From: an uncultured Acidimicrobiales bacterium
Lineage (GTDB): Bacteria > Actinomycetota > Acidimicrobiia > Acidimicrobiales > SHLQ01
DNA: 45,415 nucleotides
Assembly (NCBI GenBank): GCA_938084885.1
Contig: CALKGG010000057.1
Location: 1-45,415, forward strand
Direction of reading: 5' to 3'
A program made the translations under genes and the position numbers. This document shows, piece by piece, positions 3,080 through 27,855 of the stretch. A model generated the notes under the pieces. The model was not told the origin of the DNA, searched no databases, and saw only the letters and a program-made list of their open reading frames with translations. Each line of letters starts with the position of its first letter. Position 1 is the first letter of the stretch.

Positions 3080-3763
3080 TTGTGCCGTTCGAACAGTTTC
3101 GTGCCCGGCACCGGAGTGCTCATGGCCGATGGCACGACCAAGCCTATCGAGGACATCGAGGTTGGTGACTGGGTGTGGGCTACCGACCCTGAAACCGGAG
3201 AGACCGGCCCGCGCCAGGTCGTGGACTCGATCGTTGGCGATGGGGAGAAGCAGCTCGTTGACATCGGGGTTGGTGGCGACGTACTGACGGCGACGGATCG
3301 TCATCCGTTCTGGGTCGATAACGAAGGGCGTTGGGTCGACGCTGGTGCTCTCGAACCGGGTGATCGACTGTTGTTGGCTGATGGGTCCTCGGCGGCCGTG
3401 ATGGGGGTGGACGATCGGGTTGAGGTTGTGCGGGTTCACAATCTCACCGTGGAAGGAATCCACACCTACTTCGTCGAGGCAGGTGGCGCCGCTGTTCTCG
3501 TTCATAACTGTCGTCGTCCTGTGAGTGCGACGCGGCAGCAGGCCGTTGACAATGCGACCGACTCGTCGGGCGTGCTGCGGTGTACCTACTGCGATGACCC
3601 GCTCACGACGTCGCCGGGCTCTGGGAGTTCTCTCGAGTTCGATCACGTGGTGCCCTATGTGGATGGGGGTGGTCGCGGGATCGACAACATCGTCGCATCG
3701 TGTCGGACGTGCAATCGTTCGAAGGGTGCCAACGATCTCGCTGACTGGCTTGCGGACTTGTAG
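3080..3763 (+). CDS. 5'-truncated polymorphic toxin tip: Hint autoprotease plus HNH nuclease
   Basis: Residues 1-140 form a pretoxin Hint domain: Cys near the start (LCRSNSFVPGTG), VLMADGTTKPIEDIEVGD, TDRHPFW and the terminal VLVHNC where such domains cleave. Residues 150-227 form an HNH nuclease: CTYC, EFDHVVPYVDGG, then DNIV and CRTCNRSKG, giving the two zinc-binding Cys pairs and the DH/N core. In full toxins this tip follows a long RHS, adhesin or secreted N-terminal part. Here the frame is closed by TGA at 3050 and the only nearby start is TTG, so the delivery portion is missing. No immunity gene lies downstream on the same strand. It is probably a displaced orphan cassette, and may be silent. 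Confidence 0.82.
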   Translation: MCRSNSFVPGTGVLMADGTTKPIEDIEVGDWVWATDPETGETGPRQVVDSIVGDGEKQLVDIGVGGDVLTATDRHPFWVDNEGRWVDAGALEPGDRLLLADGSSAAVMGVDDRVEVVRVHNLTVEGIHTYFVEAGGAAVLVHNCRRPVSATRQQAVDNATDSSGVLRCTYCDDPLTTSPGSGSSLEFDHVVPYVDGGGRGIDNIVASCRTCNRSKGANDLADWLADL

Positions 3764-20871: not shown

Positions 20872-22067
20872 ACCTCCGCAAAATCCGAATCCAGCTGACC
20901 GGCATGTATGCCCTGCTCGCCGCGCTCGCGGTTGGGTTACTCGCGTGGATTGCGATCTCGATCGGCGGTGATCGCATCGTCGAGTCAGCTGAACGCGAGG
21001 CCGAGAACGTCGTGCGAGAGCTCGCCATCATTGGTTTTGACACCAGCGGCGCCGACTTCTCCGAAGATGTCGAACCGTTCAACACGTGGCGTGTCAACCC
21101 GGTCGACGAGTGGGACTTCAACTACGGAACCACCTGGTTTGAGCCACCGCTTCGAACCATGGCAGAAGAGGCGCTGGGAAACAATCGACCGACCTTTATC
21201 GAATTCGAACAAGACGGGCCACTGCTCGCCTACGTCGAGCCAGTCGAGGCGGTCCCGAACGAGGTCGTGGTGACGGTGATCGACCTCAGCCCGTTCGTCC
21301 GAGATCGCCAAGCGTTCCAACGAAACGTGATCCTGGCAGCGGTCGCTGCCATTCTGTCCACGACAGCGGCCGCATGGTTCGTTGCTGGAAGTGCGCTACG
21401 ACCAGCCCGCGAGGCAATGGCCCGGCAACGCGACTTCATTGCCGACGCGGCGCACGAACTTCGGACACCACTTGCGGTCATCCGTGCGTCGGCGAGTCAC
21501 TCGCTGTCGAAAGACCGTCCGGCGGGGGAGTACCAGCGCGCGTTGGCAGAGATCCTCACCGCCACCGAACGTGCTGGATCCGGTGTCGGCGAGCTGCTCG
21601 AACTTGCTCGCCTCGACGCGGGCCAGGCCCAGCCTCGAAAGGCGCCGCTTCGCATTGACCTGCTCATTGAAGAGGTGGCGTCAAGTGTGCGAGTTGACGA
21701 TGCCGACATCGTGGCGAATGTGTCAGAGGCGATTGTGGTCGACGCCGACTACGCCCTGCTCCGCCAGGTCACCGAGAACTTGACCCACAACGCAGCATCC
21801 CGGGCCGAAAACGTCGAACTGGCTGTCATGCGAATGGGTGATCTCGTCACGCTCCAGATTTCCGATGATGGGCCAGGCTTCGACGAGGAGATCCTTCCCC
21901 ACGTGTTCGAACGGTTCCGCCGAGGAGACAATCGCGGATCGACCGGCCTTGGTATGGCCATCGCAAAATCGATTGTGGAAGCACACGGCGGCTCGGTTTC
22001 TGCGGCCAACAGCAGTACTGGCGGCGCCATCGTCAAGCTGCATCTCGAAGCTTCGAAAGACGTCTAG
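20868..22067 (+). CDS. Sensor histidine kinase
   Basis: The 399-residue kinase has two membrane segments (about 13-32 and 153-176) enclosing a 120-residue extracytoplasmic sensor rich in aromatic and acidic residues (FNTWRVNPVDEWDFNY). No clear HAMP domain follows: the second helix passes almost directly into the H-box DAAHELRTPLAVIRAS (H196). The ATPase domain has N-box ENLTHNAASRA, G1 DDGPGF, F-box VFERFRRGD and G2 GLGMAIAK. It is the partner of the preceding regulator, with a four-base overlap. Confidence 0.92.
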   Translation: MNLRKIRIQLTGMYALLAALAVGLLAWIAISIGGDRIVESAEREAENVVRELAIIGFDTSGADFSEDVEPFNTWRVNPVDEWDFNYGTTWFEPPLRTMAEEALGNNRPTFIEFEQDGPLLAYVEPVEAVPNEVVVTVIDLSPFVRDRQAFQRNVILAAVAAILSTTAAAWFVAGSALRPAREAMARQRDFIADAAHELRTPLAVIRASASHSLSKDRPAGEYQRALAEILTATERAGSGVGELLELARLDAGQAQPRKAPLRIDLLIEEVASSVRVDDADIVANVSEAIVVDADYALLRQVTENLTHNAASRAENVELAVMRMGDLVTLQISDDGPGFDEEILPHVFERFRRGDNRGSTGLGMAIAKSIVEAHGGSVSAANSSTGGAIVKLHLEASKDV

Positions 22068-22078
22068 AAACGAACTGT

Positions 22079-22429
22079 TTAGAAGCGAGTTGAATGGTGC
22101 CGTGAGACGGTGCGGCGGCGAGGGCGAGAGAACTGTGCGCGGTGCACAGCCCGAATGATGTTGTCCATGGCGTCGAGCAGGTCGGCGTTGCCTCGGAAGA
22201 CCGCATCGACGTCTGGCCCGTCCCACAACTCGGTCAGCCGGTCGGGCGCAAGGCCAGCGTCGAGCCACGCGGTGGCAATCTGGCGGATCGCCGTATCGAT
22301 CGTTGGGTCGGCGCACTCGACGGCAATACATGCCACCTCGGCGGGGTCGAAACGACCTGCCGTGTACGAGTCCGCCACCATAGCGTTGCGATACCGGAGC
22401 GCCTGCTCGGTGATACGCGCGTGGTTCAT
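22079..22429 (-). CDS. Hypothetical protein at the end of the whiB operon
   Basis: A 116-residue soluble, largely helical protein (DPAEVACIAVECADPTIDTA, RQIATAWLDAG, LLDAMDNIIRAVHRAQF) ending in a basic tail (RPRRRTVSRHH). No family is recognised. It starts 79 bases after the ferrochelatase stop on the same strand and converges on the sensor kinase gene, so it could be the last gene of the whiB operon or be transcribed alone. Confidence 0.6.
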   Translation of the reverse strand: MNHARITEQALRYRNAMVADSYTAGRFDPAEVACIAVECADPTIDTAIRQIATAWLDAGLAPDRLTELWDGPDVDAVFRGNADLLDAMDNIIRAVHRAQFSRPRRRTVSRHHSTRF

Positions 22430-22508
22430 GACTGAAATTTAGGCTGTGACGCCCGTCGATTTGGGGATGCTCGCCGAACGTAAAACCAAGGATGCGGCGA
22501 CGTTCGAT

Positions 22509-23549
22509 CTACGACGTCGGGCGGGCGGGGCGTTGCGGTGCCGGACAACACCCCGGTACGCAGAAATCGGGACGCACCGCGAGGTCACCCAACGCCTTGA
22601 CCGGAGCATCGATTCGACGCTCGTCGATGAGCTCGACAATGGCGGTGATAAAACGCGGATCGGTTCCGACGGTGCGTGCACGGGCGTACGGAAGCTCGAG
22701 GCGTTCGGCGGTGGCGAGCGCCTCGGTGTCGAGGTCGTACATCACTTCCATGTGATCGGAGATGAAGCCGATCGGGACGACCACTACTGCACTGGTGCCA
22801 TCGTCTCGTAGCGATTCGAGATGATCGTTGATGTCGGGCTCGAGCCACGGGACCTGCGGCGGGCCGCTTCGAGACTGCCACACGAGGTCGAAATCGCGGC
22901 GCTGCGAATCGGTGCGGCCTGCCCGGTCGGCGACTAGGCGCGAGGCTTCGTGAAGTTGCGCTTCGTAGTCCGAGGTCGACGACATCGAGATCGGGATCGA
23001 ATGTGCCGTGAACACGAGGCGGGCCGAATCTCCGAGGTTGCCGAGTGCGTCGAGCGAGGCGGCGACGTTGTCGACCATTGGCTCGATGAAGCCCGGGTGG
23101 TCGTAGTACTGGCGAATTTTGTGGACGACGGGGGCGGCTTCGCCGACGTCGGCCCGAGCCCGTTCGATGTCTTCGCGGTACTGGTGACAACCCGAATACG
23201 AGCTGGTCGCTGACGTGACGAACGCAATGGCTTGGGTGATGCCATCGTTAGCCATTTGCTGCATTGTGTCGGTGAGCATTGGGGTCCAGTTGCGGTTGCC
23301 CCAATAGATCGGAAGGTCGATCCCATGCTTGGGAAGCTCGTCCTCAAGCGCGGAAATGAGCGCTCGACACTGATCGTTGATGGGGCTCTTGCCTCCGAAC
23401 AGGTGATAGTGCGCGCCGACTTGTTCGAGTCGCTCGCGTGGGATTCCTCGGCCTCGGGTGACGTTCTCAAGGAACGGAACGACCTCGTCAGGTGCCTCTG
23501 GTCCGCCAAAAGACACGATCAGGATGGCGTCATAATTGTGGGTGCTCAT
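22509..23549 (-). CDS. hemH: Ferrochelatase (coproporphyrin/protoporphyrin)
   Basis: This 346-residue class II chelatase inserts Fe2+ into a porphyrin, the penultimate or last step of haem synthesis. Visible motifs: ILIVSFGGPEAPDEV, YWGNRNWTPMLTD, FVTSATSSYSGCHQY and LVFTAHSIP (catalytic His183), and the acidic PWLEPDINDHLESL. Actinobacterial enzymes often bind a [2Fe-2S] cluster; here Cys121 and the C-terminal C330, C334 and C335 (DFCVPGCCP) could supply ligands, but the spacing differs from the mycobacterial one I recall. Actinobacteria generally use the coproporphyrin route (CpfC). It follows nei by 39 bases. Confidence 0.9.
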   Translation of the reverse strand: MSTHNYDAILIVSFGGPEAPDEVVPFLENVTRGRGIPRERLEQVGAHYHLFGGKSPINDQCRALISALEDELPKHGIDLPIYWGNRNWTPMLTDTMQQMANDGITQAIAFVTSATSSYSGCHQYREDIERARADVGEAAPVVHKIRQYYDHPGFIEPMVDNVAASLDALGNLGDSARLVFTAHSIPISMSSTSDYEAQLHEASRLVADRAGRTDSQRRDFDLVWQSRSGPPQVPWLEPDINDHLESLRDDGTSAVVVVPIGFISDHMEVMYDLDTEALATAERLELPYARARTVGTDPRFITAIVELIDERRIDAPVKALGDLAVRPDFCVPGCCPAPQRPARPTS

Positions 23550-23588
23550 AGGTGCGACCTCATTGGACAGGCGGGAGGGAACGGCGGC

Positions 23589-24380
23589 TTAGGACTGACA
23601 CGTCGGGCAGTACCAGGCTTTGCGCTTTGCAATCTCGGCGAGACGAATCTCGTCGTTGCAGCGATGACAGGGCTGCCCTTCGCGTTTGTACACGTAGAGC
23701 CGTTCATCATTTGGCATTTTGGCTGCGGTGACACCGACCTCGTCGGGATTGCGGGTGACGATGCGGTTCAGTCGAACGCCGAGCTTCAGCTGTGAAGTCG
23801 CCATTTCCCACAACTCGTGCAGCTGGTCAGTGGACAGTTGGTTCGCTGGAGTGTTTGGGTCGATCCCGGCGAGGTAGCAGAATTCGGATCGGTAGACGTT
23901 TCCGATTCCGGCGATGACGCTTTGGTCGAGGAGGGCCGCAGACAATGGGAGCTTCTTGCGTTTCATTCGTGCGGTGAATTGTTCGGGATCAGCGTCTTTG
24001 CGCAGCGGGTCGGGGCCGAGCTTGTCAGTAACTTTCGCTGCATCATCGTCGTCGATCAAGGCACAAATCATGGGCCCGGTCAGGTCCCAGGTGGCCGACT
24101 CGCTGGTCAGGCGAAGACGGATTGCACCGGTCTCTTCAGCGTCGACGGTCTTCTTGCGGAACTTGCCGATCAATCCGAGGTGGATGTGCAGCAGCGGCGC
24201 GCCTTCGAAATCCATGAACAGGTGCTTGCCCCAGGCCTCGGCTGCGTTCAATACCGAACCGTCGAGTTGGGCTGCCTCTGTCTCGAAGCGACCTTGTGGT
24301 GATGTGGCGATGACCGGTGTGGGACGGATCGTCTTGTTGAGATCCTTGGCCAACCGATGAATTGTGTGACCTTCTGGCAT
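23589..24380 (-). CDS. nei: Fpg/Nei-family DNA glycosylase (endonuclease VIII-like)
   Basis: The 263-residue enzyme starts MPEGHTIHRLA: after Met removal, Pro is the Schiff-base nucleophile and Glu3 is catalytic, and the MPEGH (not MPELPE) start places it with Nei. Further motifs are the helix-two-turn-helix LLDQSVIAGIGNVYRSE and a C-terminal zinc finger CHRC...CPTC. Such enzymes remove oxidised pyrimidines and nick abasic sites. It begins nine bases after the B12-binding regulator gene, and its placement in that operon suggests induction by light or oxidative stress. Confidence 0.92.
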   Translation of the reverse strand: MPEGHTIHRLAKDLNKTIRPTPVIATSPQGRFETEAAQLDGSVLNAAEAWGKHLFMDFEGAPLLHIHLGLIGKFRKKTVDAEETGAIRLRLTSESATWDLTGPMICALIDDDDAAKVTDKLGPDPLRKDADPEQFTARMKRKKLPLSAALLDQSVIAGIGNVYRSEFCYLAGIDPNTPANQLSTDQLHELWEMATSQLKLGVRLNRIVTRNPDEVGVTAAKMPNDERLYVYKREGQPCHRCNDEIRLAEIAKRKAWYCPTCQS

Positions 24381-24389
24381 CTGGTTGTT

Positions 24390-25217
24390 TTAGCTCGCTC
24401 GATGTTCTTGGTGAAGCTGCTCGAAGATTCCAAGCGCGTCGCGCGCTGAGGTCGAGGGAATGCAGTCTCCGAGATTTTGGATAGCTTCGACCGTCCCGAA
24501 TGCGCCGCCGCCAACGACGATTGGGGTCGTGGGAAGGAGCTCTCGGATGGCCGAGATCGTGACGCTTGTGATTTCGTCGGCGCCACTAATCGTGGCCGAG
24601 AGGCCAATGGCGACAAGATCGCTCGTCGCTGCGCAGCGTGCGGCGATCGAGTCTGGTGGGGTATTTCCCCCGAGATCATCGACGTCGAAGCCGCGGGCCC
24701 GAAGCAGATCTCGGAGCATCGCGGTTGGGAGGAAGTGATGATCGTCGGCAACGGTGGCGAGCACGATGGTTCCGCGGGCACGCCCGCGCTTTGAGCCAAT
24801 ACGAGAGCCGAGCCGGGCAACGATTCGCATGGCGGTGGCGGTTGCGACGTGCTCGTCGGCGATGTCAATCTTTCCGTCGTGCCATTGCTGGCCAATGTTG
24901 GCGAGGGTCGGTGACAGGAGATCGAGATAGACCTCATCGGCATCAGCTCCGCCGGCCATGGCATTTTCGAGAATCTGGAAGCTGCCGTTCTCGTCGCCAG
25001 CGAGGAGGCGTTCTTCGAGACGGCCCGGAATGACCTCGGGGCGGCTGGTCGTGGTGATCCGGCCCGTTTGAACTTCGGCAAGGTCTTCGACGTTGACGTA
25101 CCATTGTCCGCCACGTTTTTCAGCGGCGAGTCGGCCCGTTCGCACATACCGATACGCGGTCATGTAGTGGACCCCGAGTTTTTCGGATGCTTCGTTTAGC
25201 GAGACCGTTTGGGTCAT
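24390..25217 (-). CDS. CarH-like B12-binding photoreceptor transcription regulator
   Basis: A 275-residue protein with an N-terminal HTH of MerR/excisionase type (SLNEASEKLGVHYMTAYRYV, TGRLAAEKRGGQWYV), a linker, and a helical-bundle plus Rossmann cobalamin domain. W112 and E122-H123 (QWHDGKIDIADEH) form the W-x9-EH signature that caps the adenosyl group in CarH light sensors. The cobalamin-ligand region reads DDHHFLPTAMLRDLLRARGF, matching the E-x-H-x-L-P variant of the B12-binding His motif, followed by DLGGNTP and VVGGGAFG. In CarH, light breaks the Co-C bond, the tetramer falls apart and repression is lifted. It starts three bases after whiB and probably represses its own operon in the dark (inference). 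Confidence 0.85.
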   Translation of the reverse strand: MTQTVSLNEASEKLGVHYMTAYRYVRTGRLAAEKRGGQWYVNVEDLAEVQTGRITTTSRPEVIPGRLEERLLAGDENGSFQILENAMAGGADADEVYLDLLSPTLANIGQQWHDGKIDIADEHVATATAMRIVARLGSRIGSKRGRARGTIVLATVADDHHFLPTAMLRDLLRARGFDVDDLGGNTPPDSIAARCAATSDLVAIGLSATISGADEITSVTISAIRELLPTTPIVVGGGAFGTVEAIQNLGDCIPSTSARDALGIFEQLHQEHRAS

Positions 25218-25220
25218 GTC

Positions 25221-25565
25221 CTAGCCAGCCATCTTCTGTTCGCTGAGCGTGTTTGCTCGTGCGGCGTCTCGGCCCAGTTCGGCGACGGCGCGCCGTGAAG
25301 GGCTTCGTGGAGGATAGCCCAGTTTGGCGCGTTGTTCTTCACTTTCGCCGCCCCAGAATCCGTGCTCTCGGTTGTCCCGGGCCCAGCTGCGACAGGCGAG
25401 CATCACCTGACAGTTGTCGCAGTAGGAGCGGGCGAGTGCCTCGCGCTTGGTGCGTCGGGTTCGACGCTCTCCTGGCGGTGCGAAGAACAAGTCTGCTTTG
25501 TCCTTGCATAGACCGTCTTTGGCCCACTCCCGATTACCGGAAACGGCGAACAGTTCATCCAACAT
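25221..25565 (-). CDS. WhiB-family iron-sulfur regulator
   Basis: A 114-residue WhiB-like protein with four cluster cysteines C20, C49, C52 and C58 (GLCKDK, SYCDNCQVMLAC), the GFWGGESEEQR turn motif and a basic C-terminal region (PPRSPSRRAVAELGR). WhiB proteins hold a [4Fe-4S] cluster that senses oxygen or NO and act through the sigma-A C-terminal domain. GGGAG seven bases upstream fixes ATG 25565. It is the first gene of the whiB-carH-like-nei-hemH run. Which WhiB subclass it belongs to is not clear. Confidence 0.93.
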   Translation of the reverse strand: MLDELFAVSGNREWAKDGLCKDKADLFFAPPGERRTRRTKREALARSYCDNCQVMLACRSWARDNREHGFWGGESEEQRAKLGYPPRSPSRRAVAELGRDAARANTLSEQKMAG

Positions 25566-25592
25566 GTTTCACTCCCGAGTTCATGATTCCAA

Positions 25593-25624
25593 TTTAGCGC
25601 TAAAAGATTCTTTTACTACTAAAA
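25593..25624. promoter_or_regulatory. AT-rich operator region upstream of whiB
   Basis: Two inverted repeats lie in an AT-rich patch: TTTAGCGCTAAA (25593-25604, perfect) and TTTTA-CTAC-TAAAA (25611-25624), spaced about 20 bp centre to centre. The first is centred 33 bases from the whiB ATG, where it would overlap the -10 region. They could be bound by the CarH-like repressor encoded in the operon; this is inference. Confidence 0.5.
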
Positions 25625-25672
25625 CGACCTGAAAGGAGTAAAAGTGAACGAACACATTGGTCAAAAACGACA

Positions 25673-25704
25673 AAATCCCACAGCGAATATTCGCTGTGGG
25701 ATTT
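25673..25704. terminator. 32-bp perfect palindrome, bidirectional terminator
   Basis: Bases 25673-25688 and 25689-25704 are exact reverse complements (core CCCACAGCGAATATTCGCTG). On the minus strand the stem is followed by TTTTGTCGTTTTT, a good intrinsic terminator for the 26061-27707/mycoredoxin unit ending at 25738; on the plus strand only ATTTCGTT follows. Confidence 0.85.
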
Positions 25705-25737
25705 CGTTACTCGAACGCAGATAACGGTGGTGGAGCG

Positions 25738-26064
25738 TCAGCCGCCCAGCCACTTGTTGAGTTTCTTGGCAAAAGCGCCGTTCTCGGGGACATCCACTCC
25801 GTCAGGAATAAGTTCTGGCGCCTGATTCTGGAGCGCCTGCAGCACCTCATTGGGGCTGGGATTGACCATCTTTGCCTTACCAATGACGAGTGTCGGAACC
25901 GTCTCGTTGCCATCGGCGATGGAACGCACAGTCGCCGCGTCGGCCTTGCTCTCCCAGATGTTCTTCTTGTTCAGCGGAAGATTGAGCTTCTTCAGCTTGC
26001 TCTCCAAATTCATGCAGAACGGGCAGCCTGGCCGCCAGTAAAAGTCGATCGTTGTGTCACTCAT
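25738..26064 (-). CDS. Mycoredoxin / glutaredoxin-like protein
   Basis: A 108-residue thioredoxin-fold redoxin with active site C14-P-F-C17 (FYWRPGCPFCMNLE), the cis-Pro TVPTLVIG and a GG-like end. Mycoredoxins reduce mixed disulfides of mycothiol in Actinobacteria; the WRPGCPFC start and length fit Mrx1. A C-terminal extension (PDGVDVPENGAFAKKLNKWL) is longer than in the shortest members. The ATG overlaps the stop of the upstream membrane-protein gene by four bases. Confidence 0.85.
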   Translation of the reverse strand: MSDTTIDFYWRPGCPFCMNLESKLKKLNLPLNKKNIWESKADAATVRSIADGNETVPTLVIGKAKMVNPSPNEVLQALQNQAPELIPDGVDVPENGAFAKKLNKWLGG

Positions 26065-27707
26065 CCAGCTCGTCCAATCAGTGGGGCGTCTTCGTCGAAC
26101 AACAAACAGGTTACGAGGCGGTCAGGGTTTTCTGGCTCGTTCCACGAATCACGGGTGGGCTGGAAGAACTTGAAGTCGATGCCCCGGTCGTCGTCAGCTG
26201 GGATGAGCTCGGCGAGTGACGAGCGGCAAACGTCCTCGGCAAACATCGAAATCGCCGCCTCATCGAACTCGGTAATGGTGTCGTCGATGATGGCCTCTCG
26301 ATACACCTCGAAGTCATGTTCGACCTCGCACTCGACCCGCTCGACCTGCAGCACCTGGCCCGTGATGTCGCCAATGATGCAGTCGCCGGCCCGAAGTGAG
26401 AACACCGAAATGAGATTCGGATTCTCGTCTTCTGCAACCTCGTCCGTCGCTGCTGGCTCGTCTTGTTCTTCGCTCGGCTCAGTGGTGAGCGGACTAGTCT
26501 CGGCGGTATCGCTGCTGCTGTCACCGTTCGAGAAGAGCTGCAGTGCAAGCCAGATAATGGCGCCGATCAGCAGGAGCGATGCAAGGACACCGCCAATGAT
26601 CGACCAATTTGGGCCAGTGCGTTCGACGATTGGCGCAGGCGTGGGTTCAGGAACTGCAAGGTCGACGACATCTCGTGGCGTGGTCGGTAGTGCACCGCCA
26701 CCATTTTGCGCATCGATCGTGGAGGTGCCAGTGGCAGACGGCTTACGCCAGGCGTCGTCGCGTTCGATCGGGGTCGCTGCGGTGCTCGCGGCGTTATGGG
26801 TCTCGTAGGGCTGGAGGGGGATGCCGTTGAGGTCCGGGGTCTCGGGTACCGGCGGAGTCGACACCTCGGGGGTGGTCGTGCTGGCCACTGGAATATCGGG
26901 AACCACCGGCGTCTCGATGACCGGCGTCTCGATGATCGGCACCTCTGCTGCAGGTTGGCTCGCCAACGGCATTTCGGTTTGTGGAACCGACGGTGCAGCT
27001 CCGGTTGCGAACGGCGAGGCCGTTGCTTCGGTGGCGTTGGTCCAACCGTCCCCGGCGAGGTTGTTTCCCGCGTCGACTGCTTGCCAGCCGCCCTGGGGCA
27101 ATGGTGCGTTCTCGACAACTGGTTGGGCAAAGGCGCCGGCCACCGGCGTCTGTGGTTCGGCAGCGACGATTGGTTCGACGACCGGAGTCTGGTCGAAGCC
27201 AACCGGTTCTGGCGCGACGATTGGCTCGGCAGCGACGATTGGCTCGGCGGCAATCGGTTCGACGACGGGCGCTGGTTCGAACACGATTGGTTCGGCAGCG
27301 ACAACCGGCTCGACGACAACTGCTTCGGCAGCGACGATTGGTTCAGCAGCGACGATTGGTTCGACGACAACCGGCTCGGCGGCAATTGGTTCGACGACGG
27401 GCGCTGGTTCGAACACGATTGGCTCGGCAGCGACAACCGGCTCGACGACAACTGGTTCGGCGGCGACGATAGGTTCGGCAGTGATAGCTGGTTCAACGGC
27501 CACTGGTTCAACGACTACTGGATCAGCAACAATTGGCACCGAAGAGGCAATAGGCGCCGCGGCGACAGGGTTAGCCGCCGGCGCAGAAGTCTCGGTTGTC
27601 GCTCCGGTGATTTCGCCCTCGTATACGGCGCCGGACTCCGCATCTGCGGGGTACCACTTGCCGTCCGAGGCCAACCACCAGCCAGGTCCTTGCCATACGT
27701 CACTCAC
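26061..27707 (-). CDS. Repeat-rich membrane protein with septum-formation domain
   Basis: From GTG 27707 the product has 548 residues. The N-terminus SDVWQGPGWWLASDGKWYPAD resembles a DUF2510-type motif common in Acidimicrobiia. Next comes about 150 residues of EP-rich repeats (VVEPVVAAEPIVFEPAPVVE), a disordered Pro/Thr region, one membrane helix (IIGGVLASLLLIGAIIWLAL) and an outer C-terminal domain with LRAGDCI, VERVECEVEHDFEV and VCRSSLAEL, matching the septum-formation domain (PF13845). Cys residues probably pair outside the cell. The true start is chosen because upstream residues are not protein-like; GGAG lies close before GTG. Role in division is inferred from the domain name only. Confidence 0.75.
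   Translation of the reverse strand: MSDVWQGPGWWLASDGKWYPADAESGAVYEGEITGATTETSAPAANPVAAAPIASSVPIVADPVVVEPVAVEPAITAEPIVAAEPVVVEPVVAAEPIVFEPAPVVEPIAAEPVVVEPIVAAEPIVAAEAVVVEPVVAAEPIVFEPAPVVEPIAAEPIVAAEPIVAPEPVGFDQTPVVEPIVAAEPQTPVAGAFAQPVVENAPLPQGGWQAVDAGNNLAGDGWTNATEATASPFATGAAPSVPQTEMPLASQPAAEVPIIETPVIETPVVPDIPVASTTTPEVSTPPVPETPDLNGIPLQPYETHNAASTAATPIERDDAWRKPSATGTSTIDAQNGGGALPTTPRDVVDLAVPEPTPAPIVERTGPNWSIIGGVLASLLLIGAIIWLALQLFSNGDSSSDTAETSPLTTEPSEEQDEPAATDEVAEDENPNLISVFSLRAGDCIIGDITGQVLQVERVECEVEHDFEVYREAIIDDTITEFDEAAISMFAEDVCRSSLAELIPADDDRGIDFKFFQPTRDSWNEPENPDRLVTCLLFDEDAPLIGRAG
27238..27463. repeat. Long in-frame tandem repeat in the 26061-27707 gene
   Basis: About 94 bp at 27238-27331 recur almost unchanged at 27370-27463, offset 132 bp (44 codons), within a larger field of shorter EP-coding repeats (27160-27530). 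The offset keeps the frame, so unequal recombination would change repeat number without disrupting the protein. Confidence 0.85.
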
Positions 27708-27855
27708 ATCTCCAGCGTATCCGTCCTCCCGCGCAGGTGTGAATCGACACGACAGTTTTTGCGACCGCGCGTGGTTGGCCAACCTCAATCCGCGCGTCCG
27801 AGCCGCGCGGTTTCTAACGAGAGGGGGACGCCACAATGCTGACTAGCCTCGACCC

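Follow-up and report, generated by a model that had tools for sequence, protein, structure and literature searches.

The window (the whole 45,415-nucleotide stretch of DNA that was analysed) contains four consecutive open reading frames on the minus strand, whiB, a regulator gene, nei and hemH, which are separated by gaps of 3, 9 and 39 bp. This arrangement, the coordinates and the first two gaps agree with the first-pass annotation, to which the nei–hemH gap is added here. All four proteins exceed the curated Pfam cut-offs. The features of the locus are as follows.

25565-25221, minus strand: whiB, most likely the first gene of the operon (114 aa; Pfam WhiB, 48 bits)
25217-24390, minus strand: CarH-like regulator with HTH_17 and cobalamin domains (275 aa; Pfam, Wx9EH, DxHxxP and PDB relatives)
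24380-23589, minus strand: nei/fpg-like DNA glycosylase (263 aa; Pfam H2TH, Fapy and zf-FPG; solved Fpg/Nei relatives)
23549-22509, minus strand: hemH, ferrochelatase (346 aa; Pfam Ferrochelatase, 289 bits)
25593-25604, no strand: whiB-proximal candidate operator palindrome TTTAGCGCTAAA, conserved before whiB in the family
25612-25623, no strand: second candidate operator palindrome TTTACTACTAAA, with one mismatch; two copies are present in most family genomes
25707-25670, minus strand: intrinsic terminator in the interval between the glutaredoxin gene and whiB (17-pair stem and T tail)
22079-22429, minus strand: 116-aa ORF after hemH, a conserved neighbour that matches no Pfam family

The operon most likely begins at whiB because a strong terminator (25670-25707, folding z-score -8.0) lies 3' of the upstream glutaredoxin gene. 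A simple scan of positions 22000-26100 picked up no terminator inside the operon and no sigma-70-like promoter, either within the operon or before whiB. The orientation of the 116-aa ORF is flipped in two relatives (L047 and L050), and this ORF is therefore not a core member of the operon. Elsewhere in the window, the glutaredoxin gene has as its neighbour, here as in the family, the gene of a protein (26061-27836) that contains long repeats of the VEPVVAAEPIV type and weakly matches Septum_form. Judged from their sequences, an ORF at 3080-3763 seems to encode a Hint-type (intein-like) domain and, after it, an HNH-type nuclease, and an IS3-type transposase-like ORF (30-890) is located close to the contig end.

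The WhiB protein has the family hallmarks C20, C49, C52 and C58 together with a GFWGG turn, and its nearest solved relatives are WhiB3 and WhiB1. The best solved relative of HemH is the coproporphyrin III ferrochelatase 28wn (293 bits, with the next matches at about 130 bits), and the predicted substrate is probably coproporphyrin III. As this is the only ferrochelatase copy found in the genome of the window, hemH would need basal expression, and its complete repression in the dark is not feasible. In E. coli, ferrochelatase mutants (visA) are described in references listed in PMC6664582 as building up protoporphyrin and being light-sensitive, and deletion of hemH in M. xanthus boosts light-induced carotenogenesis (PMC8156234). 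Phytoene synthase was not found in ten family genomes, with the genome of the window included in this reading, in agreement with the earlier remark that no carotenoid genes are seen here.

In the regulator, Pfam places HTH_17 at residues 6-50, B12-binding_2 at 66-136 and B12-binding at 150-258. Both sensor motifs named in the first-pass annotation are present in the sequence: the Wx9EH motif consists of W112, E122 and H123, and the cobalamin motif DHHFLP spans residues 159-164 (D159-x-H161-x2-P164). Together, Wx9EH and a DxHxxP-type cobalamin motif define CarH homologs (PMC8156234, PMC9304148). The extended motif D/ExHx2G/P-x41-SxT/V-x22-27-GG can be counted as present, with a spacing of 42 instead of 41 residues to SAT (207-209) and with GG at 236-237; the Ser is often replaced among the family homologs. 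Wx9EH is kept in 16 of 16 family and 59 of 61 class homologs and the lower-ligand histidine H161 in all 77 homologs of family and class, such that W112, E122, H123 and H161 are nearly invariant. The Pfam domains, the two motifs and their conservation support the view that the operon encodes a cobalamin sensor resembling CarH. Two features were overlooked in the first reading, the operator pair upstream of whiB and a histidine (H113) beside the tryptophan. In T. thermophilus CarH, the equivalent of H113 becomes the upper ligand of cobalt upon exposure to light (PMC8156234); a histidine occupies this position in eight of the 16 family and nine of the 61 class homologs. Of the SignatureFinder signatures of light-responsive cobalamin domains, GxxW (G109xxW112), EH (E122H123) and GxxxP (G183xxxP187) are present and GxxH reads DxxH, with D158 in place of the glycine before H161.

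A sequence search of the PDB returns the cobalamin-binding proteins 8j2w and 8j2x as the closest solved proteins, followed further down by CarH (3whp and 5c8d), the alignments of which start only at residue 55-57. The MerR model does not match the regulator, and its HTH_17 DNA-binding domain alone has no convincing match among solved proteins. Against the NCBIfam CarH equivalog the regulator scores 59.7 bits, below the cut-off of 400. A single-sequence structure model is poor (mean pLDDT 54), with only the DNA-binding domain reaching about 80.

Alignment of the regions upstream of whiB reveals the palindrome ATTTAGYRCTAAAT. Most family genomes have two copies of it, spaced 16-25 bp from each other, and the rest have one. 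Palindromes of the type TTTAG-YR-CTAAA are located directly upstream of whiB in 16 of 16 regulator-carrying family genomes. In the 3.37 Mb genome of the window the strict form WTTTAGNNCTAAAW occurs upstream of whiB only, while exact TTTAGYRCTAAA has one further copy (G000:C19:42507-42518, L153) that sits between convergent genes and was taken as a chance occurrence. Nearly all exact sites in 14 family genomes are likewise found at whiB, and two genomes of the genus (G010 and G013; L146 and L148) have an extra copy before a DUF4397 gene that is followed by a sortase-like gene. The photolyase gene of the window's genome was dismissed as a target, as no operator is present there even with up to two mismatches allowed. 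From its sequence and position, the conserved element is a candidate operator for the regulator at the whiB promoter.

This assignment is supported by the distribution of the motif across the class. With the AT-rich family f34 (42 genomes) removed from the 395 class genomes, 353 remain, and the motif is found in 52 of the 91 that encode a strong regulator homolog, as against 14 of the 262 that do not (Fisher p = 1e-24, a value that serves only as a guide since related genomes are not independent). A reversed control pattern shows no association with the regulator (p = 0.96). The exact motif is absent from the other 39 of the 91 regulator-carrying genomes. Of the 46 regulator loci that do not belong to the whiB–hemH, bio or imuAB contexts, 25 have a site with no more than one mismatch in the interval from -300 to +50 relative to the start of the regulator gene, compared with at most one of 46 for each of 19 permuted palindromes. 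No operator was found within flanks of up to 1.5 kb per side of regulator homologs at 15 further loci, 14 from other classes of the phylum and one (L227) from the same order.

These counts also bear on the possibility that the palindrome is bound by WhiB or by another dimeric regulator, with the CarH-like protein merely travelling along. Such a binder would account for the position of the operator in the window, before whiB and not directly before the regulator gene, and for nine genomes (f4 and f2) in which it precedes whiB far from the regulator gene. It is nevertheless an unlikely explanation: in the 25 loci mentioned above the site lies before the regulator gene or genes next to it, and outside the whiB–hemH context no WhiB match is found near those loci. 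In addition, a 12-bp site with twofold symmetry that is often doubled is more in keeping with binding by a dimeric HTH protein than by WhiB. The repression proposed in the first-pass annotation gains support from an operator whose distribution follows that of the regulator and which is located just before the first gene; the DNA-binding domain and the operator itself are unlike those of CarH.

Relatives of the regulator were detected in 107 of the 395 class genomes at an E value of 1e-15, mostly with 36-47% identity outside the family. The survey of gene order suggested in the first-pass annotation finds grx–whiB–regulator–hemH in 15 of 15 other regulator-carrying family genomes, with nei between the regulator and hemH in 13. 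A 15 kb block is syntenic across the family anyway, and strong synteny was for this reason rejected as proof of function. In G007, nei and hemH stay together in the absence of the regulator, and nei is missing from L047, L048 and L085. The last of these belongs to a genome of another family (G291), where the regulator, two operator-like sites, whiB and hemH are found in a row. In the regulator tree the 16 family proteins cluster together and L085 is placed apart. It is conceivable, if rather doubtful, that only whiB and the regulator are under light control and that nei and hemH are bystanders of an old synteny, as the 15 kb block, the arrangement in G007 and the three loci without nei would allow. 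Against this speak a second family in which hemH also comes after whiB and the operators, the short distances between the genes (9 and 39 bp), and the lack of a promoter-like site inside the operon in our scan.

Outside the family, apart from loci such as L085, the regulator is located in gene surroundings other than whiB–hemH. Some of the class regulators lie beside genes for ECF sigma factors, RskA-type anti-sigma factors, photolyase, amine oxidase, DUF1365, CMAS, SRPBCC and SDR proteins. In family f4 (L080, L083, L087, L091 and L093) the regulator follows genes that resemble bioF and bioD, named from sequence only, and the operator is not nearby. As a separate observation, the regulator adjoins a gene for an ImuB-like Y-family polymerase (a mutagenesis cassette) at nine loci of families f2 and f18 (L084, L095, L101, L104, L105, L110, L114, L129 and L130), with no TTTAG operator nearby; this may possibly reflect light-linked mutagenesis.

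The operator is also found at other genes of the class. The f4 genomes with bio-associated regulators have it before a whiB gene next to photolyase, far from the regulator gene, and the exact palindrome precedes such a photolyase-adjacent whiB in six f4 records from five genomes (loci L179-L184; G163 has two). It is likewise found before whiB in three f2 genomes, and the regulators of these f4 and f2 genomes sit in bio or imuAB clusters that have no operator nearby. It is also present in clusters of the furan-fatty-acid/photolyase type. In G325 the operator lies between an SDR gene and amine oxidase–DUF1365–CMAS genes, and in G307 between amine oxidase–DUF1365 and SRPBCC–SDR–photolyase genes. 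In one relative (G053) it is found at carotenoid genes, the classical CarH target, between polyprenyl synthetase and lycopene cyclase domains. Further copies precede secreted fasciclin-domain proteins in three genomes (L174, L187 and L189), a glycosyltransferase in one, a sigma-70-family factor in one and some ECF sigma genes. Beside hemH, no operator was found in nine other-family genomes or in the two family members without the regulator, and hemH was rejected as a class-wide target. Among the predicted targets, whiB is the most widely shared, hemH is common to two families and nei is local to one. On this point, the joint control of whiB, nei and hemH that was first proposed needs correction. 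What the DNA itself shows is how the operon is built, which sensor motifs the regulator has, where the operator lies, that it is linked to the regulator, and what kinds of genes it precedes in relatives.

Photolyase, CfaS, SDR and fasciclin proteins are members of the singlet-oxygen regulon of R. sphaeroides (PMC7074977), and the Pseudomonas LitR region contains photolyase, SDR, FAD oxidoreductase and furan-fatty-acid synthase genes (PMC9758184). The operator targets match these known light and singlet-oxygen regulon genes; the operator therefore appears to mark a photo-oxidative-stress regulon, which supports light as the signal. A methylmalonyl-CoA mutase above the NCBIfam cut-off is encoded in the genome of the window and the cell therefore uses AdoCbl, while no PduO-type adenosyltransferase was found in the genus. 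The latter, together with the variability of H113 and the fact that cobalamin domains also work in proteins that do not respond to light, would fit a regulator that acts on this operator but senses cobalamin supply or redox state. We consider such a signal improbable given that Wx9EH, the motif that separates CarH from MetH (PMC8156234), is nearly invariant and that photolyase-type clusters and carotenoid genes are among the other targets.

Compared with CarH and the class I LitR proteins of Thermus, Bacillus megaterium and Myxococcus, the regulator shares the cobalamin domains, Wx9EH, D/ExHx2G/P, the likely control of its own operon and a photo-oxidative theme. The differences are an HTH_17 domain instead of a MerR winged helix, an operator that has the form of the palindrome TTTAGYRCTAAA and not of 11-bp direct repeats (nAnnTnnACAn), and whiB, nei and hemH instead of carotenoid genes as targets. 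Because it lacks the MerR domain and the direct-repeat operator and stays below the equivalog cut-off despite having both sensor motifs, we set the regulator apart from CarH proper. It is likely to be a distinct variant that combines a CarH-type sensor with a DNA-binding domain of the HTH_17 family and that has an operator and a regulon of its own.

CtMerR and photocobilin-type photoreceptors provide the best PDB matches to the cobalamin domains (8j2w and 8j2x), with GxxW, EH and GxxxP in common (PMC11796333, PMC10979010). CtMerR is a light-responsive regulator whose DNA-binding domain has also diverged. The present regulator differs from these proteins in having no biliverdin domain and in reading DxxH at the GxxH signature. 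HTH fusions of light-responsive cobalamin domains are known in general terms (PMC11796333), and neither the operator nor whiB or hemH targets were found in the accessible literature on these proteins. Class II LitR proteins (Pseudomonas PplR/PmlR) resemble the class-level relatives through their linkage to photolyase, furan-fatty-acid synthase, SDR and FAD oxidoreductase genes, but they are without a full cobalamin domain, work together with LOV proteins and bind TGTACA-N12-TGTACA (PMC9758184). The RpoE–ChrR regulon of Rhodobacter overlaps with the operator targets in photolyase, cyclopropane-type synthase, SDR and fasciclin genes (PMC7074977); it is run by an ECF sigma factor, whereas here it is some of the ECF sigma genes of class relatives that bear the operator. 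In the open-access literature searched, neither this operator nor a whiB or hemH target was found, and no paper there was found to name WhiB together with CarH.

Taken together, we consider it likely that an AdoCbl photoreceptor represses whiB–regulator–nei–hemH in the dark and that light releases this repression; that the protein binds cobalamin and represses in the dark, that light ends this state, and what the operon is for in the cell are what we infer from sequence. In the dark, the AdoCbl-bound HTH_17 repressor of CarH type would occupy both TTTAG-YR-CTAAA palindromes of the whiB promoter, which would shut down the operon, the repressor gene included. The two palindromes, and thus four half-sites, would most likely hold two dimers or one tetramer. 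Light would cleave the Co–C bond, the protein would leave the DNA and the operon would be induced. HemH would then insert metal into a photosensitising porphyrin, which is probably coproporphyrin III, oxidised bases would be excised by the Nei/Fpg enzyme and WhiB would tune the transcription of further genes. Several points count against this model: the B12 motif spacing of 42, the variable Ser, the occurrence of H113 in only half of the family, the PduO-type enzyme not found, the 39 of 91 genomes without the exact motif, the 15 homologs with none nearby and the basal requirement for hemH.

The characterised CarH proteins mainly turn on carotenoids, and the WhiB family has been studied mostly for its redox, nitric oxide and antibiotic responses. 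Here, a CarH-type sensor seems to govern the removal of the photosensitiser itself, the porphyrin, together with a WhiB protein. If this is true, green light could serve as a switch that acts through a short palindrome, a kind of site that differs from the CarH operator. The operator is a directly testable DNA target, and lets the light regulon of many actinobacterial genomes be read from sequence. Light-induced porphyrin metallation would reduce the photosensitiser in cells for which quenching of singlet oxygen by carotenoids does not seem to be an option. On a wider scale, it is about as likely as not that the class possesses a cobalamin light regulon of its own in which an HTH_17 AdoCbl photoreceptor acts on a palindromic operator and an iron-sulfur regulator of the WhiB family, as its most widely shared target, provides a second-tier response; in the present family this regulon would have shrunk to about one operon, with light-inducible porphyrin metallation replacing carotenoids.
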